From Luteibacter jiangsuensis (GTDB lineage Bacteria; Pseudomonadota; Gammaproteobacteria; Xanthomonadales; Rhodanobacteraceae): a stretch of 64,000 bases of DNA. Location: the NCBI RefSeq assembly GCF_011742555.1, contig NZ_JAAQQR010000003.1, positions 620,001 through 684,000 of the forward strand, written 5' to 3'. The notes beneath the pieces were generated by a model. That model was not told the origin of the DNA. It was given only the letters and a program-made list of their open reading frames with translations, and did no database searches. Shown here piece after piece: positions 28,611 through 49,891 of the stretch (position 1 is its first letter; every line of letters starts with the position of its first letter). The translations under genes were made by a program, and so were the position numbers.

Positions 28611-28639
28611 TGGGTGCCGGGCGGGACGAAAAAGGTTGC
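28611..28639 (-). promoter_or_regulatory. ECF-type promoter of the sigma operon
   Basis: Minus strand: GCAACC (28639-28634), 15-base spacer, GGCACCCA (28618-28611). The same bipartite element with 15 or 16 bases between the halves occurs upstream of five other operons in the window (31841, 31881, 39464, 48773, 48812). An AACC core is usual for ECF -35 elements. The motif end is 30 bases from the sigma start codon. Confidence 0.65.
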
Positions 28640-28651
28640 GCCCGTCACCTT

Positions 28652-29362
28652 TCAGAAAGTCCACGCCACGGTCGCGATCCATGGTGAGACCTTGTACTGG
28701 TACCTGGGCCGGTCGCGATCGCTCGTGACGTGGGCCACCTCAACGCGCCAGGGGCCGCGGTCCCAGGCCACGCCGGCGTGGCCGTAATAGTAGTGGTTCC
28801 GACGCTCGTAACCGGCGCCGCGCGGCGGCACCAGTTCCTGGGCGACGCCGGCGCTCGCCGTGAAGGCGAGCCCATGGGCCAGTGGCCACCGGAAACCCAG
28901 ATCGGCGGCCCCGCGCGGCCTCTGCCCGCCGTAGCGGTCCAGATGCGACGCAGAGAGCCCGAAGGTCAGCACGTCGCGATAGATCCAGCTCACGCCGAGT
29001 TCGGTGCGGTCGTACGTTCTTCCGCCGCCGTGGCGCGGATAGCGGTAGTCGAGAAGGCTGGCCTGCATTTGCCAGTCCGGCGAGAGCGACCAGGAATGGG
29101 CAACCTGCGCAACGAATCCGACGAACCCGCGCGGTGTGCGCGCTTCCGCGCTGGCGGAGACGCCGGCGGACCAGCCCGAGGGCGAGGTCCAGTTGAGCGC
29201 GCCCTGGAAGACGGGGCCGGGGCGGGTGATCGCCAGGCCGCGGTCCACCAGTTGCGATGCGACGGCGACGGTACCGCTGAAGGGGGAGTCCTCGGCCCGT
29301 GCCTCGTGGCAGGCGAACGCCGCGCAAGCGGCCATGGCGCACGCGAACGCGCCGCGGTTCAC
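28652..29362 (-). CDS. Putative outer-membrane beta-barrel protein
   Basis: A protein of about 236 residues with a signal sequence (CAMAACAAFACHEARA) when started at GTG 29362; ATG 29422 or 29461 would lengthen the N-terminus. The mature part shows alternating amphipathic strands rich in aromatic residues (TVAVASQLVDRGLAITRPGP, GVSWIYRDVLTFGLSASHLD, YYYGHAGVAWDRGPW), ending in a C-terminal phenylalanine as in outer-membrane barrels. It resembles the family of proteobacterial outer-membrane proteins of unknown function with a RGL-type first hairpin. It is last in the b561/cytochrome operon, about 100 bases after the cytochrome c gene. Confidence 0.75.
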   Translation of the reverse strand: MNRGAFACAMAACAAFACHEARAEDSPFSGTVAVASQLVDRGLAITRPGPVFQGALNWTSPSGWSAGVSASAEARTPRGFVGFVAQVAHSWSLSPDWQMQASLLDYRYPRHGGGRTYDRTELGVSWIYRDVLTFGLSASHLDRYGGQRPRGAADLGFRWPLAHGLAFTASAGVAQELVPPRGAGYERRNHYYYGHAGVAWDRGPWRVEVAHVTSDRDRPRYQYKVSPWIATVAWTF

Positions 29363-29464
29363 GCGGACGCCGGCCCTCGGCCGGCGTTGCGGTGCGTTCG
29401 TGAACGCGGGACCGTACTCCATCTGTGCATTCAGCCCTCGGGCTCGGCTCGGCCCGCACACACT

Positions 29465-29869
29465 CTAATGAAGGGTCTCGAGATAGGAAATCAGATTGTC
29501 GAGGTCCTTCGCATCGTCCAGGCCGTCGTATTTCATTTTCGTGCCCGGGTTGGCTTTTTTCGCCGGCTGCGACAGATACGTATGCAACTGTTCCGTCGTC
29601 CATGTCCAGGGACTGTGCTTCAGTGCATCGGAATAGTCATAGTCGGAAACGCTACCGGCCTTCCTGCCGACGATACCGAACAGGCTGGGACCTTTCTTGT
29701 TGCGGCCTTCCGCTACGGCGTGGCATTCGGCGCATTCGGTCTTGAAGACGTCCTTGCCGGCGGAGGCGTCGCCGGCCCGGGCGGCCGGGGGTGCCAGGGC
29801 CCCGGCGACAAGTGCGAACAGTGCCAGGAAACAACGGTTGGATAACGACACGCGTGCGGCTCCCGTCAT
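29465..29869 (-). CDS. Periplasmic class I cytochrome c
   Basis: A 134-residue exported monohaem cytochrome. The signal peptide ends PPAARAG near residue 32. The haem site is CAECH (Cys46, Cys49, His50), and the likely axial methionine is Met112 in NPGTKMKY. The order of motifs (GKDVFKTECAECH, GPSLFGIVGRKAG, LHTYLSQPAKKANPGTKM, LDNLISYLETLH) is that of cytochrome c2/c550-like proteins. It lies two bases downstream of the porin-cytochrome gene, so the two are co-expressed, and it can shuttle electrons between the b561 protein and the outer membrane or an oxidase. Confidence 0.92.
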   Translation of the reverse strand: MTGAARVSLSNRCFLALFALVAGALAPPAARAGDASAGKDVFKTECAECHAVAEGRNKKGPSLFGIVGRKAGSVSDYDYSDALKHSPWTWTTEQLHTYLSQPAKKANPGTKMKYDGLDDAKDLDNLISYLETLH

Positions 29870-29871
29870 GG

Positions 29872-31212
29872 TCAGAAAGCGATGCTGGCCGAGATGGAGA
29901 ACGCATTCAGATCGCGTGCGTCGGTACGTTGCGTGCCCGGTGCTGCGAAGAAGATGTCGTCCTCCCTGCCGGCGAAGCGGCTGAAGCGGAACCAGGTGGC
30001 CGCGAGCTTCAGGTTGGCGATCGAGGTATACGAATCGTCCTTACCGAACGGCGCCCAGTACAGGCTGATGAGGTTGGTGGTGGTATCCGGATCGCCCGAC
30101 GGGCCGAAGCGGGCGAGGTCGCGCGAGCCCGTGCTCTTGAAGTGGGTGAAGGTCAGACCGTAGGTCTGCTTGAACGTATAGGTCACGGTCATCGTCTGGT
30201 CGTGCACGATGCCCTTGTCCCGCGCGAGCACGCCGCCGATCAGGGGCGTACTGCCGTAGTCGCGCTTCTCGAGGATGTTCACGTAGGCCAGTTGCACGAT
30301 GTGATCGCGGTTGCCCAGGTACTGGTAGGTGAGGTCGTAGCCGAGGTCCACGATGTCGTCGCTGGGGCCGGAGCGCGGCAACTGCCGTTTCGTGGTGAGG
30401 CCCACCACGCCGGCCGAGAAGAACTGCTTCTTCATGTCCTTCATGTAGGCGAAGCGCCCGTAAGCGGTATCGCGCAGCCGGCCCGGATCGCCGCCGATGT
30501 TGTAGCCGAGGTGGTCCTGCTGCGAAGTGGGCAACGATCGATACGTGCCCGCCTCCCCGTACCAGTTGTCGTCATACAGGGCATAGGCCGTGGCCCCGAT
30601 GACGCGGTTGGCCAGCGAGTTGGGGCTGGACGGGTTGAGGAGCGAGCCCGTGACGCCGGCGGGGCCGAGGAAGCTGGCGGAGGGCAGGGCGGAGATCGGG
30701 TCGTTGAAGCCCGGACTGTTGTTCACGCTGATGCCGAACAAGGTGTCCTTGCCGCCGATCTTCAGTTCCTTGGCCACGAAGCGGAGGTCCACGCTGCTGA
30801 GTTTCGTGTTGTAGGTGTTGTGGCCGGTGTGATCGGCCTCAGCCTTGACGAAGCCCCCCACCTGGTCGGTGAGCCGGCCGGCGAGGTAGAGGTCGCCTTC
30901 GGACAGATCGGTGCTGCTGTTGCCGCGTGCCGGATTGCTGTGCGTTTCGGTCAACTGCAGGGCCAGCGGAATCTTCGTGCCCTTGCCGTCCGTGTCGGTA
31001 TAGCCACCCAGCTTGAAGCGCATGCCATAAGGCGTAAGCGCGGGGCCGTAGGCACCGGCGTGGCAGTCGGCGCAGGCAGCGCCGGTCTGTCGCGCATAGG
31101 CGGGAATGGCCTGCGCGGTGCCGGTGACGAACAGCAGCAGCGCGGCGAGCATGCCGCCCAGGATGAAAATGTGGTTCCTTCGCTTCGCGCGTCGGTTCGT
31201 TGGCGGCAGCAT
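29872..31212 (-). CDS. Outer-membrane barrel with an N-terminal CxxCH haem motif
   Basis: A 446-residue protein with an export signal (FILGGMLAALLLFVTGTAQA), then at once a single haem-attachment motif CADCH (Cys47, Cys50, His51), then about 380 residues of alternating strands ending in SISASIAF, a porin-like C-terminus. The haem lies close to the N-terminus of the barrel, as in fused porin-cytochromes proposed to move electrons across the outer membrane. The ATG at 31212 is preceded by AAGGA. It is flanked by a b561 gene and a soluble cytochrome c gene. Function is an inference; a haem-decorated porin for another purpose remains possible. Confidence 0.8.
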   Translation of the reverse strand: MLPPTNRRAKRRNHIFILGGMLAALLLFVTGTAQAIPAYARQTGAACADCHAGAYGPALTPYGMRFKLGGYTDTDGKGTKIPLALQLTETHSNPARGNSSTDLSEGDLYLAGRLTDQVGGFVKAEADHTGHNTYNTKLSSVDLRFVAKELKIGGKDTLFGISVNNSPGFNDPISALPSASFLGPAGVTGSLLNPSSPNSLANRVIGATAYALYDDNWYGEAGTYRSLPTSQQDHLGYNIGGDPGRLRDTAYGRFAYMKDMKKQFFSAGVVGLTTKRQLPRSGPSDDIVDLGYDLTYQYLGNRDHIVQLAYVNILEKRDYGSTPLIGGVLARDKGIVHDQTMTVTYTFKQTYGLTFTHFKSTGSRDLARFGPSGDPDTTTNLISLYWAPFGKDDSYTSIANLKLAATWFRFSRFAGREDDIFFAAPGTQRTDARDLNAFSISASIAF

Positions 31213-31262: not shown

Positions 31263-31811
31263 TCAGCGGCGGCGCCCGGGTAACATCATTCGCAAGGTGT
31301 GATCGCGCACCACGAAGTGGTGCCAGAGGGCGGCGGAAAGGTGCAGGGTCACCAGCACGAGCAGCGCCCAGGCCGCGTCCACGTGCCACGCCTGCAGCCT
31401 GTCCGCCAGGTCCTCGTTCTCGCCGACCAGGGCCGGAAGGGTGAGCCCGAAGAAGTGCACGTCCAGTCCCGCGGCTCCGCACATCGCCCAGCCGAGCAAG
31501 GGCAGCGCGAGCAGCAACGCATATAGGGCAATGTGCGTGACGCCGGCAGCGAACCGCACGATGCGCGAATGATCGCCGCCCGGCTGCAATTTGCCGTAGC
31601 GGATGCGCAGCCACACCCGAACACCGAAAAGCAGCAGCACCAGCAGTCCGGCGTGACGATGGCCTTCGAGCAACCAGGCGCGCAGGGCCCGGCCGTCGAG
31701 TTCGTCGCGAAGCAGGATCAGCGTGGCCGCGACGGCCACGCAGAACACGGTGAGCCAGTGCAACGCCACCAGCTTGCGCGGTCGCGTCGGTACCGGTTCG
31801 TTTCTCTCCAT
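31263..31811 (-). CDS. Cytochrome b561-type membrane protein
   Basis: A 182-residue four-helix membrane protein of the prokaryotic b561/thiosulfate reductase b-subunit fold. Candidate haem-ligand histidines lie in LVALHWLT (His18), LLEGHRHAG (His51, His53), and the C-terminal segments [10 protein letters not shown] and [10 protein letters not shown]. Such proteins usually pass electrons between quinol and periplasmic cytochromes. The ATG at 31811 follows GAGGGG. It is the first gene of an operon with a haem porin, a cytochrome c and an outer-membrane protein, and has an ECF-type motif 30 bases upstream. Confidence 0.88.
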
Positions 31812-31840: not shown

Positions 31841-31869
31841 TGAGTGCCGCCGTGGGGCGGGAAGGTTGC
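31841..31869 (-). promoter_or_regulatory. ECF-type promoter of the b561/cytochrome operon
   Basis: Minus strand: GCAACC (31869-31864), 15-base spacer, GGCACTCA (31848-31841). The motif end is 30 bases from the b561 start, exactly the same distance as in the sigma operon. A plus-strand copy begins 12 bases away, at 31881. Confidence 0.65.
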
Positions 31870-31880: not shown

Positions 31881-31910
31881 GCAACCTTTTGTCGAACGGC
31901 GTGGCACTCA
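31881..31910 (+). promoter_or_regulatory. ECF-type promoter of the fdtA polysaccharide operon
   Basis: Plus strand: GCAACC (31881-31886), 16-base spacer, GGCACTCA (31903-31910), 38 bases before the fdtA start. It is divergent from the b561 promoter, so one sigma factor could switch on both operons. Confidence 0.6.
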
Positions 31911-31948: not shown

Positions 31949-32374
31949 ATGGACATCCAATCGATACCCCTGCAGACGCACGGCGACAGCCGCGGGATGC
32001 TTGTCGCCCTCGAGCAGGAGCGCAACGTTCCCTTCCCGATCAGGCGCGTGTATTACCTTTTCGCGACCAGCACCGACGTGCACCGCGGCATGCACGCGCA
32101 CCGGCACCTCAATCAGCTGGCGGTGGCGGTGCGAGGCAGCGTCACCTTCCTGCTCGACGACGGCACCGGCCCGAGCACGGTCACGCTGAACGACCCCACC
32201 CGGGGGCTTCTCCTCGGAAGCATGGTATGGCGCGACCTCTACGATTTCAGCGAGGACTGCGTGCTGATGGTGCTGGCCGACCAGCTCTACGACCCGGCCG
32301 ACTACATCACCGATTACGACGAGTTCATTCGCGAGGTGAAGGGCGAAGCCAGGCTGGAGGGAAGCGCATGGTGA
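31949..32374 (+). CDS. fdtA: FdtA/WxcM-like dTDP-sugar 3,4-ketoisomerase
   Basis: A 141-residue cupin that moves the keto group of dTDP-4-keto-6-deoxyglucose from C4 to C3, before transamination. Family motifs are visible: [40 protein letters not shown] with the active-site histidine cluster, and the C-terminal [17 protein letters not shown]. It is the first gene of the polysaccharide operon and overlaps the aminotransferase gene by seven bases. Whether the product has the galacto (FdtA) or gluco (QdtA) configuration cannot be read from sequence. Confidence 0.88.
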
Positions 32375-33495
32375 CATCGGCGTCGCCGGTGGTGCCATTC
32401 CTCGACCTTCGCGAGGCCAATGCCGCGCATGCCGACGAACTGAAGGCCGCCGCGGCCAGGGTCATCGACTCCGGCTGGTACGTCATGGGCGAGGAGTTGT
32501 CCTGCTTCGAGCGCGAATTCGCTGCCTGGTGCGGCGTGCGCCACGCCGTGGGTGTGGGTAACGGACTGGACGCGCTGTCGCTGATCCTGCGTGCCTACAT
32601 CGACATGGGCGAGCTGGCGGAGGGCGACGAGGTGATCGTGCCGGCCAACACGTTCATCGCGACGTTCCTCGCCGTGAGCGGCAACCGCCTGGTGCCCGTG
32701 CCGGTGGAACCGGACGATGCCTCGTTCAACCTCGATCCGTCGCGCGTCGAGGATGCCATCGGACCGCGTACGCGCGCGATCATGGCGGTTCATCTCTATG
32801 GCCGCCTTGCCGATATGGCCGCACTCGCGACCATCGCCCGGCGACACGGTCTCCTGCTGATCGAAGACGCCGCGCAGGCGCACGGCGCGGCGTCGCTCGG
32901 GCGAAAGGCCGGCGCGTTCGGCGACGCGGCGGGGTTCAGCTTCTATCCCGGCAAGAACCTCGGTGCCCTGGGCGACGGCGGCGCCGTCGTGACCGATGAC
33001 GATCGGCTTGCCGCGGCCGTGCGCGCATTGCGCAACTACGGTTCGGTGGAGAAGTACCGGCACGACCGGCAAGGCGTGAACTCCCGTCTCGACGAATGGC
33101 AGGCCGCCGTGTTGCGGGTGAAGCTCCGCCACCTCGATGCGGAGAACCTGGCACGGCAGCGGATCGCCGCCGTCTATCGGCAGTCGATCGTCCATCCCGC
33201 CATCCGGGTGCCGGGTGAGGGAAGCCCGGGCAGCCACGCGTGGCATCTTTTCGTGGTGCGCAGCGCGCGACGCGACGCCCTGCGCAAGCACCTGGCCTCC
33301 CGGGGCGTGCAAACGCTGGTGCACTACCCGATTCCGCCGCACCGCCAGGAGGCCTATGTGCAGCTGCGGCACCTGTCGCTGCCGCTCACGGAGCGCATCC
33401 ACGACGAGGTGGTGAGCCTGCCGATGGGGCCACGCCTTCGTGCGGACCAGGTGGCGCAGGTGGTGGACGCCTGCCTGTCGTTTCCCCTCGCATGA
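32368..33495 (+). CDS. fdtB: DegT/DnrJ/EryC1/StrS sugar aminotransferase (FdtB-like)
   Basis: A PLP enzyme of 375 residues that would aminate the 3-keto sugar made by the preceding isomerase, giving a 3-amino-3,6-dideoxyhexose nucleotide. The PLP lysine lies in [18 protein letters not shown], with [11 protein letters not shown] for the ring-binding aspartate and the N-terminal [14 protein letters not shown]. It overlaps fdtA and wzx. An N-acetyl- or acyl-transferase that normally completes such sugars is not found nearby. Confidence 0.9.
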
Positions 33496-34742
33496 ACATC
33501 GTCCGGACAGGTCTCTATTCGGCGGCGGGAACGGCCGCGCGCCTGCTTGCCGCGCTGCTCGTGGTGAAGCTGGTCGCCTCGTTCGCGGGCCCCGCCGGCG
33601 TCGGGCGGCTGGGCCAGTTCATCAGCCTGATGTCGCTACTGGCGGTGTTCGCCGGGGGAGGCATCGGCTCCGCGGTGGTGAAGTACGTGGCGGAATACCG
33701 CGACGACGCGGCGCGCCTTGCGCGTCTTCTGTCCGCCGCCCTGTGGTACGCGCTGCTGGCCTCCTGTGCGATGGGCCTCGTGACGTGGCTCTTCAGCGAG
33801 AGGATCGCCGCATGGTTGTTGGGCGACACGGCGTATGCCGGGCTCGTGCGCGTGCTCGCCATCGCGCAACTGGGCGTCGCAGCCGTCAACTACATCCTCG
33901 CGGTCATCAACGGTTTCATGGACGTTCGCCGGTTGGCGCTGGTGCAGGTCGCCGGTTCGGCGCTGGCGATGCTGGCGGCGCTCGCGCTCTCGCGCTGGCT
34001 GCATCTGTATGGCGCGCTGCTTTCCCTGGTGCTGGGACAGGTGCTGTGGCTCGTGGTGGGCTTGCCCGCATGGTGGCGCAGTCCGTACTTCCAGCGCGGG
34101 ATGCTCCGCATGCGCTTCGATCGGGAGATGACCCGCCGGCTCGCCGCGTTCTCGACGATGACGCTGACGTCGGCGCTGGTGCCGCCGTTGGTGAACATCG
34201 CCGTGCGCGACGATCTCGCCGCCCGCTTCGGATGGGAGCAGGTCGGCTACTGGCAGGCGGTCACCCGTGTGTCGGACGCCTACCTTTTGTTCGTGGTCGC
34301 GGCGATCAACATGCATTACCTGCCCCGGCTTGCGGCGGCGAAGGAGCGGGGGGCTTTGGTCGCCGCCCTGGGCGAAGCGTGGCGTTACCTCCTGCCTGCG
34401 GTGATGGGGGTGGCGGTCGTCATCTACCTGATGCGCGATGTGGTCACCAGGGTGCTTTTCAGTGGCGATTTCGCGGCGGCGAACGACCTGTATGCGCCGC
34501 AGCTAATCGGCGACGTGCTGAAGATCGCTTCGTTCGTGCTTGCCTACCTCATGCTCGCCAAGGCGATGACTCGGCTCTTCATCGTCTCCGAACTCGTTTT
34601 CGCCGGAACGTACTTCCTCCTCGTGCACGCCTTGTCGATCCGTTTCGGTCTGGTCGGCGCGATGTACGCCTTTGCCGCGAACTACGCGATCTACCTGCTC
34701 TTCAACGTTGCCGTGGCAAGGCGCTACCTGGGAGCCCTGTGA
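33492..34742 (+). CDS. Wzx-type flippase (O-antigen/ECA translocase family)
   Basis: A 416-residue membrane protein with about twelve hydrophobic spans, of the MATE/polysaccharide-transporter superfamily. The opening [20 protein letters not shown] and the motif [13 protein letters not shown] resemble WzxE translocases for lipid-linked oligosaccharides. It should move undecaprenyl-linked repeat units across the inner membrane. It overlaps fdtB by four bases and lies one base from the next gene, within a single operon that also has Wzy- and Wzz-like genes. Confidence 0.88.
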
Positions 34743-34743
34743 C

Positions 34744-35682
34744 ATGACCGCCCCGGCGACAACGTCGATGCCGCTCGTTTCGGTGCTCGTGCCCGCCTAC
34801 AACCACGAGGCTTTCGTGCGGGAATGCCTGGACAGCATTCTCGCCGACCACTACCCGGCGAAGGAGATCGTGATCATCGACGACGGCTCGACGGACGGCA
34901 CCGCCGGATGCATCGAGGCGTGGCTGGCGCGGCACCGCGACGATATCCCCGTGGAATACGTGAGCCGCGAGAACAAGGGCATTGCCGCCACCCTGAACGA
35001 GCTGGCGGCACGCGCGCATGGCGAATTCCTGCGCATCGGCGCCAGCGACGATTTCTTCCTGCCGGGTGGTTCGGAGACCCTGGTGCGCTACCTGATGGCA
35101 CATCCGGGCAAGGGCGCCGCCATTGGCGACTGCGTGGTCGTCGACCGCGACGGCCGGAAGTTGCTCGACAGTGGCATGAGCGACCTGCATGGCGCAGACA
35201 AACGCCTGTACCGTACCGACGAGGGCATTCGCCGTGCCGTGATCAGCCATTGGGCCATCGGCGGGCCGGTGACCATGCTGCGCAAGGGCGCCCTTGAAAC
35301 CGTCGCGCGCTGGACCGAAGGCCTTCGCATCGACGACTGGGACCTCTTCCTGCGCCTTGCTGCGCGCGACGCCATCGGTTTCGTCGACGAGAAGGTCTGC
35401 GCATACCGTCTGCACGGTGCCAACTTCAGCAAGACGCGCCATACGGCCACACGCATCGTGAACCTCACCGAGGCACGCGAGGTGGCACTGCGCCGCGTCT
35501 GCATGTTCGCCGAGCCGGACCGCACGCTGCTGCGTGCGGAGGCATGCCGCATCGGTGCGAAGATCGCCTACCTGCAGGGCAGGATGGGAAAGGTCGCCGT
35601 GCACATGGCAGCCTATGTCGCGCTGCTGGCGATCTCGAGGCTCCGCGTCGCGCACGGTCGCCATCGCATGGGTGCGGCGTGA
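34744..35682 (+). CDS. Family 2 glycosyltransferase
   Basis: A 312-residue GT-A fold transferase. VSVLVPAYNHEAFVRECLDS is the nucleotide-sugar binding start, IVIIDDGSTDGT carries the first aspartate group, and RIGASDDFFLPGG is the DxD-like metal site. The C-terminal part includes IDDWDLFLRLA. There is no membrane anchor apart from a weak hydrophobic patch near residue 290. Donor and acceptor are unknown. It is the only glycosyltransferase in this operon, so more must be supplied elsewhere, for example by the two GT4 enzymes at 43789-46001. Confidence 0.9.
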   Translation: MTAPATTSMPLVSVLVPAYNHEAFVRECLDSILADHYPAKEIVIIDDGSTDGTAGCIEAWLARHRDDIPVEYVSRENKGIAATLNELAARAHGEFLRIGASDDFFLPGGSETLVRYLMAHPGKGAAIGDCVVVDRDGRKLLDSGMSDLHGADKRLYRTDEGIRRAVISHWAIGGPVTMLRKGALETVARWTEGLRIDDWDLFLRLAARDAIGFVDEKVCAYRLHGANFSKTRHTATRIVNLTEAREVALRRVCMFAEPDRTLLRAEACRIGAKIAYLQGRMGKVAVHMAAYVALLAISRLRVAHGRHRMGAA

Positions 35683-36863
35683 AACGATTGCTGCGTCTGC
35701 CGTCCACCTACCTCTGCCTGCCGATGCTGCTGGCGTGCGGCATCACGCTGCTTACCTACGACCTCCCCGAAGGATACGGACAAGGCATCCTCCTGCTCGT
35801 GTTCGCCTCGCTGGGCATCATGCTGGCGGACGTCTGCTGCGCACCGCGGCTGCCGGCGCCGTGGCGATTCCGCGAGCGCACGTACGCCGGCACGCGCGAA
35901 GGGTTCGTCGCGCTCGCCTTTGCCGGCGTGGTGGTCGTCTTCTGTCTGCTCGACCTGCTGCTCTATCCCGTGCCGCTCATCAGCAATCCTTCGTCGTACG
36001 CGACGCTGGAACCAGGGCGCGAACACCTTCGCCACATTTCCGACATGTGCTGGATCCTGCCCGTGATCGGCCTGCTTTGTGCGCGCCATCCTGCGCTGCG
36101 GTCCGGGCTGATCGTGATAGGACTCGCGTTCCCGGTGATGGTGATCGATCGCAACCGGATCTTCGCGGGACTGTTTTCCATCGCCTTCGTGCTGGCCTTC
36201 CGCCGCGACGAGGCCCGCCCTCTGCCATGGAAGGCGATCGCTCTCCTGGGCTTGATCGGTTGCGTCGTGTTTTCCGTGCTGGGGACACTTCGTTCGGGTT
36301 CCATCGAGCACGTGACGCTCCCCTTCGGCGATCTCTACCGCTCTGCGCCTCAGGGCGTGAAGTGGTTGTTGCTGTATGTGAGTGCCGGTCCCTACAACTT
36401 CGCCGCGATGCTCGCCAAGCACTACACGAATACGGATTTCCTGCTGCACCAGCTCGTACCCGGCAGCGGCGCCCTGGCCACTGCCGACACCGACATCCCC
36501 CTGGACGCCATCAACATCAACGTCGGCACCGAATACCTGCCGTTCCTGATGGCATGGGGCGCGGGTGGCGCCGTGGTAGCCATGGTTGCGGCCTATGCGC
36601 TGCTGCTGTGGTGCGTGCGGCGGCTTCGCCCCGCGGTGCCGCTCTTCGGGCTGCTCATGTTCCTGCGCATTGCCTACGTTTCGGTGATGTCGCCCTTCGC
36701 GCCGCAGATCTTCATCTGGATGAACGGCGGTTTCCTCGCCCTTTGCCTGTTGCTGCAACTGCTTGCCGGCCTGCTTCCGAACCGGCGTGCCGCGATGCCT
36801 TCTCTCCTTTCCGATCACCACCACGAGTTACCCGCATGGCAAACGACGACGAAATCTACCTGA
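35679..36863 (+). CDS. Putative Wzy-type polysaccharide polymerase
   Basis: A very hydrophobic 394-residue protein with about ten spans and a larger polar segment after residue 220 (SIEHVTLPFGDLYRSAPQG). Start GTG 35679 overlaps the glycosyltransferase stop as GTGA. Sequence alone does not prove the role: Wzy proteins share little identity, and the call rests on topology, on IDRNRIFAGLFSIAFVLAFR, and on its place between wzx, a glycosyltransferase and a wzz-like gene. An O-acetyltransferase or other membrane enzyme is less likely. Confidence 0.7.
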   Translation: MKRLLRLPSTYLCLPMLLACGITLLTYDLPEGYGQGILLLVFASLGIMLADVCCAPRLPAPWRFRERTYAGTREGFVALAFAGVVVVFCLLDLLLYPVPLISNPSSYATLEPGREHLRHISDMCWILPVIGLLCARHPALRSGLIVIGLAFPVMVIDRNRIFAGLFSIAFVLAFRRDEARPLPWKAIALLGLIGCVVFSVLGTLRSGSIEHVTLPFGDLYRSAPQGVKWLLLYVSAGPYNFAAMLAKHYTNTDFLLHQLVPGSGALATADTDIPLDAININVGTEYLPFLMAWGAGGAVVAMVAAYALLLWCVRRLRPAVPLFGLLMFLRIAYVSVMSPFAPQIFIWMNGGFLALCLLLQLLAGLLPNRRAAMPSLLSDHHHELPAWQTTTKST

Positions 36864-37681: not shown

Positions 37682-37725
37682 CGGCTCGGCTGCCCCATCG
37701 CAGTAGCGCTCTGACGGTAGGGAGG

Positions 37726-40343: not shown

Positions 40344-40345
40344 GC

Positions 40346-41557: not shown

Positions 41558-42270
41558 ACGGCACACCTATCCTGGAACCGGTGGAGGCCTATGAACTCTG
41601 GGCAGCTCATTACCCGGCGCACGCACACAATCCCGTGATGCGCACGGAAGAACGGGCGATGCTGGAACTGTTGCCCGACGACCTGACCGGTGCCACCGTG
41701 GTCGATGCCGGCTGCGGCAGCGGGCGCTATGTGAGGCATGTGCTCGCCCGCGGCGCGGCACGCGTCCACGGTGTGGATCTGTCGCCGGCCATGCTCGCCC
41801 GCGCAGCAACGGAGCTTGGGAGCGACATGTCGCGCGTGGTGCTGAGCGAAGGCGGTCTGGACGCCCTGCCATTGGACGATGCGACCGCCGACCTCACCGT
41901 GTGTGGTCTCACCGTCGGGCACGTCGAGGCACTGCAACCGGCGCTGGCGGAGCTGTGCCGCGTCACCCGGTCGGGCGGTTACGTGGTGTGCAGCGACGTC
42001 CATCCCATCGGGCACGCGCTGGGCTGGCTTCGCGATTTCAAGGCGGGCGGCCGACGCTATGCCGCGCGCCATACGCCACATCTGTACAGCCACTGGCACG
42101 CGGCCTGCGCGCGACTCGGCCTGGCCATCGAACAGGTGCGCGAACCCATGCTCGACCCTCGCGACATTCCCCCAGACGCGCACTTCGACCGCAAGGCGCT
42201 CGAGGTGCCGGTGGCATTGGTGTTCCTCCTGCGCCGCGTTGGCGTTTCCGTTCCCGGATGGCAGTCATGA
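41554..42270 (+). CDS. SAM-dependent methyltransferase
   Basis: A class I methyltransferase of the UbiE/Methyltransf_11 type, 238 residues. Motif I is TVVDAGCGSGRYVRHVL near residue 48, the acidic motif II is VHGVDLSPAMLARA, and LDALPLDDATADLTVCGL and CRVTRSGGYVVCSDV follow. It overlaps its upstream and downstream neighbours by four bases. It is distinct in sequence from the methyltransferase at 39498. The acceptor is unknown. Confidence 0.88.
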   Translation: MNGTPILEPVEAYELWAAHYPAHAHNPVMRTEERAMLELLPDDLTGATVVDAGCGSGRYVRHVLARGAARVHGVDLSPAMLARAATELGSDMSRVVLSEGGLDALPLDDATADLTVCGLTVGHVEALQPALAELCRVTRSGGYVVCSDVHPIGHALGWLRDFKAGGRRYAARHTPHLYSHWHAACARLGLAIEQVREPMLDPRDIPPDAHFDRKALEVPVALVFLLRRVGVSVPGWQS

Positions 42271-43775
42271 CGCCCACGAACACGCTTCTTGTGAATCCCA
42301 CCGTCACCTCGCGCGCCAGCGCGCGCTTTCCCTTGTCGCTGTTGCACCTGTCGGCGGCCCTCGACCGGAACGGCAGCAGCCGCATCGTGGACGGCAATGT
42401 GGATCGCGACGTGGTGGACGCCACCCTGCGCGCGCTGGGCGAAGAGCGTTTCGACGCCGTCGGCATCAGCGTGATGGGAGGGCCGCAGATGGCGCCGTCG
42501 ATCGCCGTGTCGAAGGCGATCCGCGAACACCGCCCCGACCTCCCGATCGTGTGGGGCGGCTATTTCCCCACGCTGTACACCGACACCGCGCTGTCCGCGC
42601 CTTACGTGGACTATGCGATACGCGGGCAGGGCGAGGAGAGCTTGCCGGAACTCCTCGCGGCGCTGGGACGGGGCGAACGCGACCTGTCGCGCATCGGCGG
42701 CCTTTCCTGGAAGAACGATGGCGTCGTCGTGCACAACCCCAACCGGCGTTTTTCGCTGGACAACAGCGGCATCGTGCTGCCTTACGACAAGCTCGGCGAT
42801 CCGCGGCGCTACCTCGCACCCACGTTCCTTGGCCGGCGCACGGCGGCGCACCAGGCCGCCATCGGTTGCCGTTTCCGCTGCACCTTCTGCGGCGTGGCGG
42901 CGATGTTCGGCGGCGCCACGGCATTGCCCACCACCGCGCGCCTGGAACGCGATCTCGGTTACCTGAAGCATCAGCTCGGCGCCGACTCCATCCAGTTCTT
43001 CGACCATAACTTCTTCGACCGCGAAGCGGACATGGTGCCCCTGCTCGAGATCATGGCGAAGCTGGAACTGCCGTGGTGGTGCTACGCGCGTTCCGACGCC
43101 CTGCTGAACCTCTCCGAATCCACCTGGAAGCTGGTGCGCAAGAGCCGCCTGCGCATGGCGTATATCGGCGCGGAATCGCCCAGCGGTGCGATGCTCAAGG
43201 AGATACGCAAAGGCACGCGACCGGACCAGACCCTCGAGGTGGCGGAACTGTGCCGGCGGCACGGCGTGATCCCGGAGCTTTCGTTCATGGTTGCGCCGCC
43301 GGTGAACACCGAGGAAGAGACGCTGCACACGTTCGAGTTCATTCGCGAACTGAAGAAGATCAATCCGCAGTCGGAGATCATCGTTTATATCTACACGCCG
43401 TTGCCGGAGGGCAGCAAGCACGAGAAGGAGCGCGGCAAGCGTGCCTCGATGCCCTTGCTCGATCTCAACGGCGATCCGGTGGTGTTTCCCACCTCGCCGG
43501 AGGAATGGACCGAGCGCCGATGGGTGGACTATGCCTGCCATGCGGACGCGCCGTGGCTGAGCGACGACCTGCGCCGGCATATCCAGGATTTCGTGACCGT
43601 GCTGCGCTGCCGCTTCCCCACCGTGCAGGACCTGCGCTCGCCGCCCTGGGCCAAGCGCGGTCTCAGTGCGATGGCGGCGTGGCGCTACCGTCGGCGCCGC
43701 TACGACCGTCCGTGGGAGCTCAACCTGGCCAACCGGCTCGTGCGCCTGCGGATGCCGCAGGTCTCGGGCCTCTGA
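42267..43775 (+). CDS. B12-binding-domain radical SAM protein
   Basis: A 502-residue radical SAM enzyme. The first ~150 residues form the cobalamin-binding-like Rossmann domain common to this class (VGISVMGGPQMAPSIAVSKA, IVWGGYFPTLY). The cluster motif is CRFRCTFC (Cys201, Cys205, Cys208), followed by IQFFDHNFFDREADMVPLLE and the C-terminal half with YIGAESPSGAMLKEIRKGTR. Such enzymes methylate or rearrange unactivated carbon or phosphorus centres; some use bound B12. Starts at ATG 42267, overlapping the methyltransferase stop. A second, related protein is encoded at 47241-48767. Confidence 0.9.
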   Translation: MTPTNTLLVNPTVTSRASARFPLSLLHLSAALDRNGSSRIVDGNVDRDVVDATLRALGEERFDAVGISVMGGPQMAPSIAVSKAIREHRPDLPIVWGGYFPTLYTDTALSAPYVDYAIRGQGEESLPELLAALGRGERDLSRIGGLSWKNDGVVVHNPNRRFSLDNSGIVLPYDKLGDPRRYLAPTFLGRRTAAHQAAIGCRFRCTFCGVAAMFGGATALPTTARLERDLGYLKHQLGADSIQFFDHNFFDREADMVPLLEIMAKLELPWWCYARSDALLNLSESTWKLVRKSRLRMAYIGAESPSGAMLKEIRKGTRPDQTLEVAELCRRHGVIPELSFMVAPPVNTEEETLHTFEFIRELKKINPQSEIIVYIYTPLPEGSKHEKERGKRASMPLLDLNGDPVVFPTSPEEWTERRWVDYACHADAPWLSDDLRRHIQDFVTVLRCRFPTVQDLRSPPWAKRGLSAMAAWRYRRRRYDRPWELNLANRLVRLRMPQVSGL

Positions 43776-43788
43776 CGGGGCAGCGCGC

Positions 43789-44904
43789 GTGCACGTTGCC
43801 ATGGTGAACTTCCTTCCCGCGCCGCCGGGCGCGTCCCCCGAGAACGTGTTCGCGCACTGGCGTTCGCTGGCCGACATCGCCGAGATCGTCGGCCGCGGGG
43901 GCACGCGCGTGACGGTCGTCCAGATGGCCGACGCAGACCACGAGCTGGAGCGTGCCGGCGTGACGTACCGATTCGTGGGTACCGGCGGTACGCGGCGTGC
44001 GCGCGAACTCGGCCGCCGCGCCGCACGCGTCGTCGCAGGACTGGGCGCGGACGCGCTGCACGTGCACAGCCTCGCGTATGCACGTCATGCGATGGCGGTG
44101 TCGCGCGCGCTACCCTCGTTGCCGATCCTGCTTCAGGACCATGCGGACGGCGTACCGCGCGGATGGCGCCGGCTACCCTGGCGTCGCTGGTACGCCGCGG
44201 CCTCGGGCATCGTCTTCACGTCCGTCGCGCAGGCGGAGCCGTTCGCGCGGCAACGCCTGTTCCCGCGCGACACGCCGATCTTTGCGATACCGGAAAGCAG
44301 CAGCCGTTTCACGCCGGGCGATCGTGAGACGGCGCGCGTGGCCACGGGGCTGCGAGGCGATCCATGCGTGGTATCCGTGGGTCATCTCGCCCTTGGCAAG
44401 GACCCCATGACGATGCTCGACGGCGTGGCGCAGGCGGCCGAACGGCTGCCCGGCCTGCGGCTGTATTGCGCCTTCGGCACCGCGCCCCTGATGCCGGAGG
44501 TGCGGGCGCGCATCGAACGCGATCCGCGTCTCGCCACGCGCGTGAAGCTCCTCGGCAACGTACCCCACGCGGCGGTGGAACACCTGTTGCGCGCGGCGGA
44601 TGTGTTCGTGTCGGCGAGTCTCGCCGAGGGTTCCGGTTATGCGCTTCTCGAAGCGCTCGCCTGCGGTGCGTTTCCCGTCGTGACGGATATTCCCGCTTTC
44701 AGGGCGATCACCGGGAACGGGCGCATCGGAAGGCTGTGGCCACGCGCCGACGCCGCGGCGCTAACGGACGCGCTGATCGGCGCGGCGGAGCAGAGGGCCG
44801 ATCGCGGCACCGTGCGCGCGCACTTCGACAGCACGCTGTCGTTCGATGCCCTGGGGGCACGCTGGGCGAATACCTATGCACAGCTGCTTTCGGGGTCGCC
44901 ATGA
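43789..44904 (+). CDS. GT4-type glycosyltransferase
   Basis: A 371-residue GT-B fold glycosyltransferase. Start GTG 43789 follows a GGGG stretch; ATG 43801 would also work. The C-terminal Rossmann domain shows VSVGHLALGKDPMTMLDGVA, VKLLGNVPHAAVEHLLRAAD and the nucleotide-sugar site VSASLAEGSGYALLEALACG, equivalent to the usual EGFG-x7-E motif. The N-terminal domain has HVHSLAYARHAMAV. It overlaps the next glycosyltransferase gene by four bases. Donor unknown. Confidence 0.88.
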   Translation: MHVAMVNFLPAPPGASPENVFAHWRSLADIAEIVGRGGTRVTVVQMADADHELERAGVTYRFVGTGGTRRARELGRRAARVVAGLGADALHVHSLAYARHAMAVSRALPSLPILLQDHADGVPRGWRRLPWRRWYAAASGIVFTSVAQAEPFARQRLFPRDTPIFAIPESSSRFTPGDRETARVATGLRGDPCVVSVGHLALGKDPMTMLDGVAQAAERLPGLRLYCAFGTAPLMPEVRARIERDPRLATRVKLLGNVPHAAVEHLLRAADVFVSASLAEGSGYALLEALACGAFPVVTDIPAFRAITGNGRIGRLWPRADAAALTDALIGAAEQRADRGTVRAHFDSTLSFDALGARWANTYAQLLSGSP

Positions 44905-46001
44905 AGATCGCGCTGGTGTTGCCGGGTGGCGTGGACCGCGGCGGAGAGGAGCGTGTGATTCCCGTCTTCCTCGCCCTGATCGCGCGCCTGGCCCTCCATC
45001 ACGACGTGCACGTGTTCGCCCTGCATCAGGAAGCGCGGCCGGATTCCTGGCCGCTGGCGGGCGCCACCGTGCACAACATCGGTGCCGGCCGGACCGTATG
45101 GCGCGCCATCCAGGCGATCCGCGAAGAACACAGGCAGGGCGCCTTCGACGTCGTGCATGCGATCTTCTCGGGCCATTGCGGCCTGATTGCGGTGGTGGCG
45201 GCAAGGTGGCTTGGCCTTCCCAGCCTCGTACACATCGCCGGCGGCGAACTGGTGGCGCTGCGGGCCATCGGTTACGGCGGCCGAAGGAAGTGGCGCAGCC
45301 GCCTGCGCGAGGCGGTGGTGCTGCGTGCGGCGCGTGCCGTTACCGCCGCGAGCGCACCGATACTGCATTCGCTGCGGGAACTGGGCATCGCGGCGCGGCG
45401 CGTGCCCCTCGGCGTCGATACGCAGGCATGGGCGCCGCTGCCGCCGCGCGCGCGCACCGGCGGGCCGGCCCGGCTCATCCACGTCGCCAGCCTGAACAGG
45501 GTGAAGGACCCTTCGACCTTGCTGCGGGCCATGCGCAAGCTGTCCGACGCAGGCGTGGACTTCGATCTTCGCGTCGTCGGCGTGGACACGCTCGGCGGCG
45601 AGATCCAGCAGCTTGCACGCACCCTCGGCCTAGAGGAGCGGGTGAGTTTCCTCGGCTTTCGCACCCAGCGCGAGTTGCGCCCGCTCATGGCATCGGCCGA
45701 TCTTCTCGTGATGTCGTCGCTGCACGAGGCCGGGCCCCTGGTTCTGCTGGAGGCCGCGGTAGCCGGCGTGCCCACGGTCGGCACGGCGGTCGGACACCTC
45801 GTCGAATGGGCGCCAGCGGCGGCGCTCGCCGTTCCCGTGGGCGATGCGGACGCGCTGGCCTCCGCCGTGGCCATGGTGCTCGGCGACGACGACCTGCGGC
45901 TGCACCTCGCCCGGCAGGCGCAACAGCTCGCGCTCGTCGAAAACGCGGACCATACGGCCGCTTGCTTCGAGGCCCTTTACGAAGAGGCCGTGCGCCGCTG
46001 A
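44901..46001 (+). CDS. GT4 glycosyltransferase
   Basis: A 366-residue GT4 family enzyme: a glycine-rich start KIALVLPGGVDRGGEERVI, HVASLNRVKDPSTLLRAM at the beginning of the second domain, VSFLGFRTQRELRPLMASAD, and the donor-site motif SSLHEAGPLVLLEAAVAGVP with the conserved glutamates. It is last in the run 39498-46001 and convergent with the nucleotidyltransferase gene, 13 bases away. Together with the preceding gene it can add two sugars to an unknown acceptor. Confidence 0.9.
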   Translation: MKIALVLPGGVDRGGEERVIPVFLALIARLALHHDVHVFALHQEARPDSWPLAGATVHNIGAGRTVWRAIQAIREEHRQGAFDVVHAIFSGHCGLIAVVAARWLGLPSLVHIAGGELVALRAIGYGGRRKWRSRLREAVVLRAARAVTAASAPILHSLRELGIAARRVPLGVDTQAWAPLPPRARTGGPARLIHVASLNRVKDPSTLLRAMRKLSDAGVDFDLRVVGVDTLGGEIQQLARTLGLEERVSFLGFRTQRELRPLMASADLLVMSSLHEAGPLVLLEAAVAGVPTVGTAVGHLVEWAPAAALAVPVGDADALASAVAMVLGDDDLRLHLARQAQQLALVENADHTAACFEALYEEAVRR

Positions 46002-46014
46002 ACGGGGAACGGTG

Positions 46015-47232
46015 TCAGCCTGGAAGCGGTGCCCCATGTTCCAGCGCCTTGCGCACCACGTAGAGCGTGTCCATGCGCGGCACCGGACGCGTGAGCCAGG
46101 TAAGCAGGCGACGACGGTGGCCGAGGGTGACCCAGGGCTGGTCTTGCAGCCATGCCTGCGTGCGCAGCATGTCCTTGCGTTCCTGCACGCTCTCTTGTGT
46201 CGGCCGCAAGCGGTTGCGAAGGTAGCGCACCGCTTCGCGTGGCGAGCGCGACCATTCCAGGCCGGGCAAGGCGTTGAGCCACAGATTGGAGCAGGACAGG
46301 CTGCTCAGTGTCTGGTAGCGCGTGAAGGCGCGAAGCAGCGGCGGGCAATCCCGTTCCAGACTGCCCAGCACGGACGCCGGAACGGCGCCGCGGTAATAGC
46401 GGGCCACGAGGCGCAGCGGCGGCAGCGCCCACCATGGTGTCTCGCCGGCCCATAGCGGCAGCCAGTCGGCCGGCGTCATGCGCGTGGCCAGCAGGGCGAT
46501 GTCGTTGAGGTGAATGAAGCGCAGGCTGCGTCCGCAGATGTTCCCTGCCGCATGCAGCAGCAGGTGGCTCATCAGTGCGCCGGGGGACGGATAGGGATGG
46601 ATGCCGGGCGTGGCGTCGGCCGTCCGTACCTGCGCGGTGATGTCCACGGTGGCGACGGGCAGGCGTTCATGGATACGCGTATGCAGCTCGATATTGACCG
46701 GCGTATCGCAATGCTCCCCCAGCGCCATGACAGGCGAGGCGTCGCGGGGCTTGAACACACGGTGCTTCCACTGCGTGAACGAGGCTTCATAGCCGAGCGA
46801 GACGAGGAGGTCCGCCGTCGCGTCCGCGTGCGTGTCGTCGACGAGCAGGTCGATATCCGCCATGGGCCGGTCTCCCGCGGCGTAAAGACCCAGCGCATGC
46901 AGCGCCGCACCTTTCAACGCCATGAGCGGCAGGCCGCTGGCGCGCGCGCCAGCGTCGATCCGACGGAGCAGATCGGCGATGCGCTGGTGCCGTTGCTCCA
47001 CGTGTCCGCGTTGCTCCACCAGGAAACGGCGCCACGCCGGCCGCTGCCATGTGGTGAACCGGCAGAGCGACGGCGAAATGCCGTGGGCGGCGGCCGCCGC
47101 CATGGCGAGCCGCCACTCGAGTTCGCTCCAGGCGGGCGTGTCGGTGCCGGGAAGCGCTCGCGCAAGCTCGTTCGCGAGGATCTCGGTGGTGTCGCGCAAT
47201 CCGCGGCGGACGAGCTTGAGCGAAGGCGTCAT
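46015..47232 (-). CDS. Nucleotidyltransferase family protein (NTP_transf_5-like)
   Basis: A 405-residue protein of the uncharacterised nucleotidyltransferase family often found with HPr-kinase-like proteins in peptide or polysaccharide clusters. The core reads LMALKGAALHALGLYAAGDR, then MADIDLLVDDTHADAT (the two aspartates of the polymerase-beta fold), then HCDTPVNIELHTRIHERL. The N-terminal ~100 residues are helical (AMAAAAAHGISPSLCRF). It is coupled to the radical SAM gene upstream (eight bases) and lies in a divergent arrangement with the kinase-like gene. The substrate modified is unknown. Confidence 0.85.
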   Translation of the reverse strand: MTPSLKLVRRGLRDTTEILANELARALPGTDTPAWSELEWRLAMAAAAAHGISPSLCRFTTWQRPAWRRFLVEQRGHVEQRHQRIADLLRRIDAGARASGLPLMALKGAALHALGLYAAGDRPMADIDLLVDDTHADATADLLVSLGYEASFTQWKHRVFKPRDASPVMALGEHCDTPVNIELHTRIHERLPVATVDITAQVRTADATPGIHPYPSPGALMSHLLLHAAGNICGRSLRFIHLNDIALLATRMTPADWLPLWAGETPWWALPPLRLVARYYRGAVPASVLGSLERDCPPLLRAFTRYQTLSSLSCSNLWLNALPGLEWSRSPREAVRYLRNRLRPTQESVQERKDMLRTQAWLQDQPWVTLGHRRRLLTWLTRPVPRMDTLYVVRKALEHGAPLPG

Positions 47233-47240
47233 GGTGGGCT

Positions 47241-48767
47241 TCAGAGGAGGGGGAGGGCGACGCTTTGCAGCGCCATGGGCGACGCGGGCGTGGGGGCCTC
47301 GCTGCGATGCGCTCGCTCGCTTGCGATGAGCGCGTCCCAGCGTTTGCGCAGCGACGCCTCGGCGTTCCTGTCGGGTGGCGCTTGCCGAAGCGTCACCTGC
47401 TCGTGCAACAGGTCGCGGAAGGCGCGGTAGAAATCGGAGTCGTAGGCGCCGCGGAACATCATCGCCAGGTCGGCGCTGTCTTCCCAATGCGTCTTGCGGC
47501 CGAGTTGCGCCTTCACTTCCTCGAAGAATTTCGTGCCGGGAAGGGGGTAGGACACGCTGACGCCGATATCGTCCGGTGCGGCCTCGGCCACCAGCTCGCG
47601 CGTGGCCAGCAGGTCGTCGAGCTGTTCGCCGATGTAGCCCAGCTGGATAAAGAATCCCACGCGGATGCCATGGACGCCGAGCCGGTGCCGGGCACCGATG
47701 AGCTCGGACACGCTCGTGCCTTTCGTCATGCGGTCGAGCACGCGCTGGCTGCCGCTTTCCGCGCCGATCCATGCTTCCGCACAACCGGCCTTCGCGAGCG
47801 CGGCGCACATGCGCTCGCTGGCGAGGTCGGCACGCGTCTGGATGGTGAAGGGAATCGAACCGTCTTCTTCTTCCAGGCGCTCGGCGAATTCGCCCACCCA
47901 GTCGGCGCGGAAGCCGAAGATGTCGTCGGCCATCCAGATGTGATCGGGCCGGTACGTCCGCTTGAGCCAGGTCATCTCGTCGGCCACTTCGCGCGCCGGC
48001 CGCTGATTGTAGTGATTGCCCCAGATGGGCTTGGCGCACCAGTTGCAGCGGAAGGGGCAGCCGCGCGACGCGGCCATGTTGAGGCTGAAATAGCCGTGCC
48101 GCTCGTGCCAGAAGCGGCGGTAACGCTCCACGTCGAGCAGGTCCCATGCGGGCTGCCCCACGACGCGCGGATCGGGCGGCCGTGGCCCCATGTGCGCACG
48201 CCTGACGCCGTCGCCGGTGCGCGTGGCTACGCCCGGCAAGCCGGCCGTCCAGGCTTCGTCGTCGATGTGCGGGTCGCGCTCCAGCCGGTCCACGAGCGCG
48301 AGCAGCGCGCCGATGCCTTCGCCTGTGAGCACCGCGTCGGCACCGGCGGCAAGGAACGGTTCCGGGTGATCGGAGGCGTCCGAGCCTGCGACGATCACGC
48401 GGGCACCGGCGGCATGCGCTTCGCCGATCATGCGGCAGGCCGCCTCGCGCATGCGGCCAAGACACATCTTGGTCAGGAAGTTGAAGTTGTCTTCGTAGAA
48501 CACCACCAGATCGGGTGCGGCGTCGCGAAAGGCGGGCAGGAAATCCTCCGCGCCGCCGGACAGCATGGCATCGAACAGCGAAAGCTCGTGTCCCATACGG
48601 CGGAGCAGGGCGGCGATCTGTATGGTCGCCAACGGCGGATAGGGTTTGCCGCGCTCCCACTGTTTCCTGTCGTAGCGCAGGAAATAGGAGTGGCCTACCT
48701 GGATCTTCAGCATCGGTTGGAAGCCTCGAACGGAACCATCGGGACGCCGCGAGGGCGACGCTGCCAT
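47241..48767 (-). CDS. B12-binding-domain radical SAM protein (second)
   Basis: A radical SAM enzyme with an N-terminal cobalamin-type Rossmann domain (LATIQIAALLRRMGHELSLF, VIVAGSDASDHPEPFLAAGA) and the cluster motif CPFRCNWC, followed by HIWMADDIFGFRADWVGEFA and EAWIGAESGSQRVLDRMTKG. Two starts compete. ATG 48713 has GAGG upstream (490 residues). ATG 48767 has none but lies five bases after the GGCACTCA promoter box, matching the leaderless spacing of two other genes here; I chose 48767 (508 residues). It resembles the protein at 42267-43775 in domain order but is not a close copy. Confidence 0.87.
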   Translation of the reverse strand: MAASPSRRPDGSVRGFQPMLKIQVGHSYFLRYDRKQWERGKPYPPLATIQIAALLRRMGHELSLFDAMLSGGAEDFLPAFRDAAPDLVVFYEDNFNFLTKMCLGRMREAACRMIGEAHAAGARVIVAGSDASDHPEPFLAAGADAVLTGEGIGALLALVDRLERDPHIDDEAWTAGLPGVATRTGDGVRRAHMGPRPPDPRVVGQPAWDLLDVERYRRFWHERHGYFSLNMAASRGCPFRCNWCAKPIWGNHYNQRPAREVADEMTWLKRTYRPDHIWMADDIFGFRADWVGEFAERLEEEDGSIPFTIQTRADLASERMCAALAKAGCAEAWIGAESGSQRVLDRMTKGTSVSELIGARHRLGVHGIRVGFFIQLGYIGEQLDDLLATRELVAEAAPDDIGVSVSYPLPGTKFFEEVKAQLGRKTHWEDSADLAMMFRGAYDSDFYRAFRDLLHEQVTLRQAPPDRNAEASLRKRWDALIASERAHRSEAPTPASPMALQSVALPLL

Positions 48768-48772
48768 GGTCA

Positions 48773-48801
48773 TGAGTGCCCGGCCCTGCCACCGAGGTTG
48801 C
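48773..48801 (-). promoter_or_regulatory. ECF-type promoter of the radical SAM / nucleotidyltransferase operon
   Basis: Minus strand: GCAACC (48801-48796), 15-base spacer, GGCACTCA (48780-48773). This is a full match to the copies upstream of the b561 operon and, apart from one pyrimidine, the sigma operon. ATG 48767 follows after five bases. Confidence 0.65.
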
Positions 48802-48811
48802 CTCTGGCTGC

Positions 48812-48840
48812 ACAACCATTCCCGCGGTGTGTGGCACCCA
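48812..48840 (+). promoter_or_regulatory. ECF-type promoter of the HPr-kinase-like / exporter operon
   Basis: ACAACC (48812-48817), 15-base spacer, GGCACCCA (48833-48840), divergent from the copy at 48773. ATG 48847 follows after six bases with no Shine-Dalgarno sequence between, so the transcript would be leaderless. Confidence 0.6.
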
Positions 48841-49890: not shown

Positions 49891-49891
49891 C

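Follow-up and report, generated by a model that had tools for sequence, protein, structure and literature searches.

We analysed a 64,000-nucleotide stretch of the Luteibacter jiangsuensis genome (contig NZ_JAAQQR010000003.1, positions 620,001 to 684,000; hereafter the window, numbered from its first base) that carries six sites of a bipartite motif, GCAACC-N15/16-GGCACYCA. With a probability of roughly 0.85, these six sites are promoters read by the extracytoplasmic function (ECF) sigma factor encoded at 27997-28581 on the minus strand, which would activate its own gene together with glycan, cytochrome and export operons and, less certainly, would receive its signal through a domain resembling a subtilase prodomain. 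The conserved operon set is very probably switched on by this one alternative sigma factor. A pattern seen in a single window becomes a testable regulon, found from Luteibacter to Xanthomonas, that joins an extracellular glycan to respiratory and outer-membrane cytochromes. The predicted promoter consists of a -35 element, GCAACCTT, and a -10 region, GGCACTCA, with 15-16 nt between GCAACC and GGCAC. The same bipartite element stands before the sigma gene and before its presumed targets, which is what defines an autoregulon as far as sequence can tell. From these promoters the sigma factor would drive its own operon (sigma, anti-sigma and subtilase) as well as the Wzx/Wzy-type glycan, the cytochrome b561/c/outer-membrane and the HprK-like/ATP-binding cassette (ABC) operons.

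A strict search of the window returned four sites, located at 28611-28639 (minus strand, sigma operon, GCAACC-N15-GGCACCCA), 31841-31869 (minus, b561 operon), 31881-31910 (plus, fdtA operon, spacer of 16) and 48773-48801 (minus, radical SAM/nucleotidyltransferase pair). The two others are variants: the site of the HprK-like/ABC operon at 48812-48840 (plus) reads ACAACC..GGCACCCA with one mismatch in its first half, and that of the methyltransferase run at 39464-39492 (plus) reads TAAACC..GGCACCCA with two. A preliminary description of the window had listed GCAACC six times; all six coordinates and strands were recovered, but only four copies are exact, and the description had marked only the 39464 site as weaker. 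Its placement of every site in non-coding DNA also held, since all six are extragenic once the gene starts conserved among relatives are adopted (fdtA 31949, b561 31811, radical SAM 48713, HprK-like 48847 and methyltransferase 39498).

The motif is rare in this genome. The scan of all 4,334,851 bases yielded only the four strict matches of the window and none with the reversed pattern, a refined pattern matched three times, always in the window, and 100 shuffles of the window gave no strict match. Two one-mismatch matches lie elsewhere in the genome (contigs C2 and C15), neither with a called gene within 400 nt downstream. Both the genome-wide scan and the count of intergenic against coding matches had been suggested in the preliminary description; the latter was made at 30 loci (28 from a scan of the genus plus the two one-mismatch sites), and the match overlapped a predicted gene at five of them. 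These five overlaps, together with the strict matches found in some genomes lacking the sigma factor, could be taken as signs of chance matches or of a dispersed repeat. Four sites within 20 kb, none in the rest of 4.3 Mb, an empty control and the conservation of orthologous positions make this explanation negligible, and we reject it.

The distribution of the motif follows that of the sigma gene, in agreement with the proposed ECF promoter and its autoregulation. Over a family set of 233 genomes, the strict motif was present in 85 of the 93 genomes that encode an ECF orthologue (at least 70% identity) versus 45 of the 140 that do not, and at least two sites were found in 75/93 versus 6/140. 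The mean number of strict sites per genome was 2.86 with and 0.37 without the orthologue (reversed-pattern controls 0.29 and 0.11, respectively). Fisher values for this co-distribution ignore the relatedness of the genomes and should not be read as true probabilities. Within the genus (23 genomes), 16 of the 18 orthologue-bearing members have the strict motif, and none of the five lacking the orthologue does. Eight ECF-bearing genomes lack a strict site; six of them possess near variants such as GGTACTCA or GGCACTTA, and G011 and G028 show neither strict sites nor near variants. On the side without an orthologue, the strict matches of G166 and G196 look like chance, because no TT-containing variants occur there, and G044, G224 and G225, each with at least two sites, hold ECF homologues of 43-47% identity. 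Genome G088 has two sites and only weak ECF matches, and is unexplained by any orthologue.

Two other kinds of regulator could in principle produce such a distribution. The sites might be read by another ECF paralogue in the same cell, since each of 12 genomes searched contains two to five ECF matches (E≤1e-10). However, the five genus genomes without the orthologue keep two to four other, weak ECF matches and still lack the strict motif, and we consider this reading quite improbable. Alternatively, the motif may be the site of a different regulator linked to the cluster, either an activator or a repressor. Any factor encoded in the cluster would be expected to co-distribute with the motif, and the two divergent pairs, in which the two outward-facing copies are separated by 11 and 10 nt, would suit such a site. 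This alternative was weighed at orthologous promoters.

For this comparison, a weight matrix was built from 17 distinct sites upstream of b561 and fdtA, mostly from the b561 side and none taken as an ECF site (consensus GCAACCTTtC ... cCGGCACTCA). Distinct 280-nt upstream regions were scanned with a score of at least 17, and hits starting past residue 25, regions cut by the end of a locus and duplicates were dropped. The site was found upstream of the ECF gene in 62 of 66 regions from Rhodanobacteraceae and allies, in 24/24 from Xanthomonas and before 12 of 18 remote ECF genes (<55% identity). The fdtA operon showed it in 48/48 regions and, in Xanthomonas, in 25/25; the corresponding values for b561 were 41/41 and 25/25, of which the first is circular, being the training position of the matrix. 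The HprK-like gene was preceded by a site in 11/14 regions by matrix and 6/14 by the strict-type pattern, and the radical SAM gene of the divergent operon (B12-rSAM2) in 9/14 and 11/14, respectively. The sites stand at the heads of operons and hardly ever inside them: 16 families of internal cluster genes outside Xanthomonas gave a site in 1 of 449 upstream regions (an OMcyt region), and six internal families in Xanthomonas gave 0/96. Only one shuffled region exceeded the threshold overall, and antisense matches corresponded to divergent pairs, save for 1/41 OMcyt and 1/79 subtilase regions. Conservation of the gene block and of most promoter positions extends across Luteibacter, Dyella, Rhodanobacter and Xanthomonas, the order FdtA | b561-OMcyt-cytc-porin-ECF-anti-sigma-S8 being kept in the seven displayed Xanthomonas loci. 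An example of the ECF site in Xanthomonas reads GCAACCTTTTGCC..GGGCACTGA.

The remote ECF genes are the most informative group for the choice between the sigma factor and another cluster-linked regulator. Within the 5-10.5 kb regions viewed around them, the ECF gene is usually accompanied by an anti-sigma factor and an S8 protease, and sometimes by a porin-like protein, a second S8 protein or a GGDEF match, while the main glycan genes gave no match in these regions. The 12 sites found there are single and correctly oriented towards the ECF gene. Moreover, the distance between divergent copies varies among relatives (1, 24 and 11 nt in G009, G010 and G015), so that the dyad appears unconstrained; the back-to-back arrangement was accordingly discarded as a functional unit. 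The fixed spacing of 15-16 nt and the AAC core, which is typical of the -35 boxes of ECF promoters, likewise fit ECF promoters. Taken together, a cluster-linked regulator other than the sigma factor seems improbable, and the ECF promoter is the reading that we follow below.

Several observations weigh against this ECF reading or limit its reach. The cluster gene B12rSAM1 is distributed exactly as the ECF gene in the genus (18/18 and 0/5), and because of this perfect co-distribution the genus test alone cannot tell the sigma factor from the cluster. The two are separated only by the remote ECF genes, viewed within 5-10.5 kb, and six of the 18 have no site. The threshold of 17 was fixed after earlier scores had been seen. 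Regions upstream of the ABC gene also score (4/14 by matrix), and a match within the anti-sigma gene of the window, at 27531, reaches 15.1. The sites at 39464 and 48773 score only 13.8 and 17.6, neither above chance (the best of 20 block-shuffled windows gave 19.4); therefore, both rest on their conservation. The matrix found no site at all upstream of the first methyltransferase gene (MT1; 0/19). Its inclusion in the regulon, as first proposed, is thus borne out only in part, by a strict-type site in 8 of 19 orthologous regions (several relatives carry TCAACC..GGCACTCA at this position), and the putative promoter of the methyltransferase run is the weakest member of the set.

Sites are also found away from the cluster. 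In relatives, 19 off-cluster regions were hand-picked for their resemblance to the consensus, and the site clearly precedes a methyltransferase (MT3) in nine, an AhpC/TSA gene in five, and another or unclear gene in five (Pfam matches of representatives). Several genomes with off-cluster MT3 or AhpC/TSA sites appear to belong to the Dyella group, and in one Rhodanobacter-group genome an MT3-like gene lies within the cluster itself (L220). The MT3 homologue of L. jiangsuensis is encoded on another contig (G000:C19:172901-173524) and is 60% identical; the site upstream of it is degenerate, with a score of 12.5 that lies within chance, and the sites of G009, G017 and G021 score 24.3, 25.6 and 19.8. 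The original proposal of a local regulon is therefore supported for its operon set, but the predicted regulon is not strictly local, since relatives also have the site before methyltransferase and AhpC/TSA genes outside the cluster.

The sigma factor contains sigma regions 2 and 4 only (PF04542 and PF08281; alignment A3), as is characteristic of ECF factors, matches TIGR02937 with 65.4 bits (cut-off 42.9) and is 99% identical to that of Luteibacter sp. SG786. Its operon continues with an anti-sigma factor (27356-28000, minus), whose start overlaps the sigma stop, and a subtilase of family S8 (26055-27359, minus); this pair did not figure in the preliminary account of the regulon. The anti-sigma factor carries an HxxxCxxC motif, with H37, C41 and C44 invariant in 16/16 sequences, and a zf-HC2 match of 27.3 bits (cut-off 22.2). 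Together with a predicted membrane helix (residues 96-119 of the structural model, hydrophobic by reading and of low confidence in the model), this corresponds to a class I zinc-binding anti-sigma factor. The subtilase has a lipoprotein-like signal, and 14 of 16 close orthologues possess a lipobox-like motif.

The anti-sigma and the subtilase appear to share a similar domain. In the model of the anti-sigma factor (mean predicted local distance difference test score, pLDDT, 71; predicted template modelling score, pTM, 0.35), an N-terminal helical domain and the hydrophobic helix are followed by a C-terminal β-α-β-β-α-β domain (residues 146-206), and the subtilase model (mean pLDDT 70) shows the same order of elements ahead of the catalytic domain (residues 49-140). 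The best PDB matches of the subtilase model are pro-subtilisins. For the anti-sigma model, the top Foldseek match was 8c4x_B, annotated 'PAM Protease' (E 0.049), and matches to the subtilisin propeptides 2z58, 1scj, 1spb, 3cnq and 2z2y and to the inhibitor POIA1 (1itp) were also obtained. A profile-profile comparison of the anti-sigma C-terminal domain with the subtilase N-terminal domain (58 and 53 diverse sequences) gave a score of 35.9, a probability of 87.2% and an E-value of 3.8e-6, whereas 100 column shuffles never scored above 19.7 and the reversed profile reached 10.5. When a hidden Markov model (HMM) of the anti-sigma domain was run against 6,644 open reading frames (ORFs), S8 proteins filled the first 22 non-anti-sigma ranks (best E 0.015); the reverse search with the prodomain HMM gave a weaker signal, in that anti-sigmas made up 80 of the 199 non-S8 matches at E up to 100. 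Furthermore, PF22148, a fervidolysin-type prodomain family, matched above its cut-off on the anti-sigmas L127, L130, L259 and L263 and at E≤0.01 on 3 of the 15 members of alignment A4, which spans from these anti-sigmas to that of the window. These results suggest that the periplasmic domain of the anti-sigma factor probably resembles a subtilase prodomain.

The resemblance nevertheless has its counterweights. None of the Foldseek matches reaches E 0.001; those to propeptides are weak (E 0.08-0.5) and are mixed with RRM and ACT ferredoxin-like folds. A profile comparison with 16 + 16 rows gave a probability of only 1%, although the same two domains were picked out, and BLASTP of the anti-sigma against the subtilase found nothing. 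Among non-S8 proteins, the top match to the prodomain HMM was an ORF that does not encode an anti-sigma, and a PF22148 search of the window anti-sigma gave no match. The catalytic domain is also atypical. Each residue of the Asp/His/Ser triad is present in 112 of 112 subtilases (family loci and Xanthomonas, near-duplicates included). The aligned position of the oxyanion-hole Asn, part of the AAGN motif of subtilases, is never Asn (0/112) and mostly reads A-M/L-P-P, so that the S8 oxyanion residue is absent. An Asn occurs one residue further on in 27/112, where an alignment shift is conceivable, and the window subtilase lacks this one too. Outside the family, an AAGN-like motif is found in 14 of 19 subtilases and not in the other five.

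On this basis, a signalling route may be sketched, whose steps are less certain than the promoter assignment. The zinc-finger anti-sigma factor would keep the sigma factor at the inner membrane, and its periplasmic domain would dock on the lipoprotein subtilase as a prodomain docks on its protease. An envelope cue might then alter the complex of the two by cleavage or release, and the sigma factor would be freed. In this view the inhibitor and the protease would possess homologous modules. The state of the protease, whether occupied by its own prodomain, bound to the anti-sigma domain or freed by the cue, would thus set sigma activity. The loss of the oxyanion Asn speaks against simple proteolysis, which favours docking or slow cleavage over rapid proteolysis, and the Xanthomonadales subtilase may be a receptor or a very slow protease. 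We put this proposal forward tentatively, at somewhat less than even odds. The cue could be redox or envelope stress, a speculation suggested by the cytochromes and, in relatives, AhpC/TSA among the targets.

The subtilase may instead be a co-regulated output without a sensing role, the prodomain likeness being convergence on the common ferredoxin-like fold. The weak similarity of single sequences and small profiles, the mixed fold matches and the missing oxyanion Asn are all compatible with this, as are the anti-sigmas L270 and L277, which have an S8 neighbour without a C-domain HMM match. It is harder to reconcile with the failure of the shuffled and reversed profile controls, with PF22148 on several anti-sigmas and with the S8 adjacency far outside the family, and we regard it as unlikely, if still deserving real weight. 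This adjacency comes from a phylum sample of 397 genomes, 27 of which gave A4 matches. An ECF match flanks each of the 25 loci that lie outside the family, and 19 of these loci, from 18 genomes, have an S8 match within ~1.5 kb (beyond the ECF gene in two; with the anti-sigma on the other strand in one). An S8 gene lies beside 17/19 anti-sigmas with a C-domain HMM match versus 2/6 without; the search profile includes the prodomain-like domain, so the trio count carries an ascertainment bias. The 25 loci are not independent either, since six derive from one genus (g145) and a few single genomes contribute two loci each. In one outside-family genome (G334), L260 and L280 are near-identical copies of the ECF/anti-sigma/subtilase trio. 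Returning to prodomain-based signalling, the trio, seen outside the family in 18 of the sampled genomes, would represent an ECF input in which the inhibitor appears to borrow the prodomain of a protease.

Some further features of the motif were noted. An ATG follows it by 6-7 nt at four of the six sites (28604, 39498, 48767 and 48847) and could give leaderless transcripts; that at 28604, before the sigma gene, begins a frame of eight codons that overlaps the start of the sigma gene. As a general feature this was rejected, as all four are kept in the near-identical G015 and elsewhere are retained only in isolated cases (the methyltransferase ATG in G021, the radical SAM ATG in G005). The distance from the motif to the downstream start is larger in most relatives, at least 27 nt for the ECF gene and 33-73 nt for the radical SAM gene. 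A sigma-54 promoter (consensus TGGCAC-N5-TTGCW) was likewise dismissed, because TGGCAC is present in only two of the six sites and, read by eye, TTGC follows in neither. Among the two-mismatch matches, a repeated sequence around ATCGCCGCTGAAGCGGCTCCCA on contigs C3, C11, C13, C17 and C19 is probably a dispersed element similar to repetitive extragenic palindromes (REP-like).

The remaining genes, taken outward from the predicted promoters, are as follows. Upstream of the sigma gene on the minus strand lie a TorF-family putative outer-membrane porin (28652-29422; TIGR02001), a cytochrome c (29465-29869; PF00034), a conserved 426-residue protein bearing a single CxxCH close to the N-terminus (29872-31152; no Pfam or NCBIfam match) and cytochrome b561 (31263-31811; PF01292). 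The 426-residue protein, whose gene occupies the same position between those of b561 and cytochrome c in genomes ranging from Luteibacter to Xanthomonas, is possibly an outer-membrane cytochrome (porin). On the plus strand, an FdtA-type sugar isomerase (31949-32374; PF05523) is followed by a DegT aminotransferase, a Wzx flippase, a GT2 glycosyltransferase, a Wzy-like polymerase (named from context, with no family match) and Wzz (32368-37681). In some relatives FdtA and DegT are separated by three additional genes that are missing from the window (a hexapeptide transferase, a gene of unknown function and a GNAT gene; L215 12688-15240), and therefore the glycan may differ. Between Wzz and the methyltransferase run, an inverted repeat of 292 nt, 91% complementary (37673-37964 and 39152-39443), encloses two small ORFs (38025-38477, minus; 38684-39106, plus); since the same gap in G005 is only ~135 bp, this segment looks like an insertion. 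The run itself (39498-46001, plus) encodes a methyltransferase, an amidohydrolase, a second methyltransferase, a B12-binding radical SAM protein and two GT4 glycosyltransferases. It is followed by an NTP_transf_5 nucleotidyltransferase and a B12-binding radical SAM protein (46015-48713, minus) and by an HprK-related protein (Pfam match below cut-off) with an MsbA-like ABC exporter (48847-51598, plus). A GGDEF diguanylate cyclase gene (51666-52847) comes after the ABC gene and adjoins it in G021 and G005 as well.

Our search of the open-access literature turned up neither this regulon nor an anti-sigma factor with a prodomain, which is weak evidence of novelty, as the ECF reclassification may already list such a context. 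Like RpoE/RseA and SigW/RsiW, the system combines an ECF sigma factor, an N-terminal anti-sigma domain and a predicted autoregulated promoter, and its anti-sigma N-terminal domain matches RsiW (5wuq) both by profile (E 0.0061) and by Foldseek. In those systems the first cut is made by DegS (S1) and PrsW, respectively. Unlike them, the partner gene here encodes a lipoprotein-like subtilase, and the anti-sigma factor carries a domain similar to a subtilase prodomain. PMC8999054 links sigma factors of the ECF54 and ECF282 types to subtilases or other proteases without an anti-sigma factor, and names subtilases as possible degraders of such ECFs; the present ECF gene shares the protease link described there but is accompanied by a zinc-finger anti-sigma factor. 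With subtilisin prodomain:subtilase pairs and POIA1, the system has in common the predicted β-α-β-β-α-β domain, to which the weak Foldseek matches (1scj, 1spb, 2z58 and 1itp) and PF22148 in distant members point; in contrast to them, the prodomain-like domain forms part of a membrane anti-sigma factor here, with a second copy on the protease itself. Finally, Wzx/Wzy polysaccharide clusters occur in Xanthomonadales, and the cluster resembles them in its FdtA, DegT, Wzx, glycosyltransferase and Wzz genes, but differs in that a single set of predicted ECF promoters would add the cytochrome and HprK-like/ABC modules to glycan synthesis.

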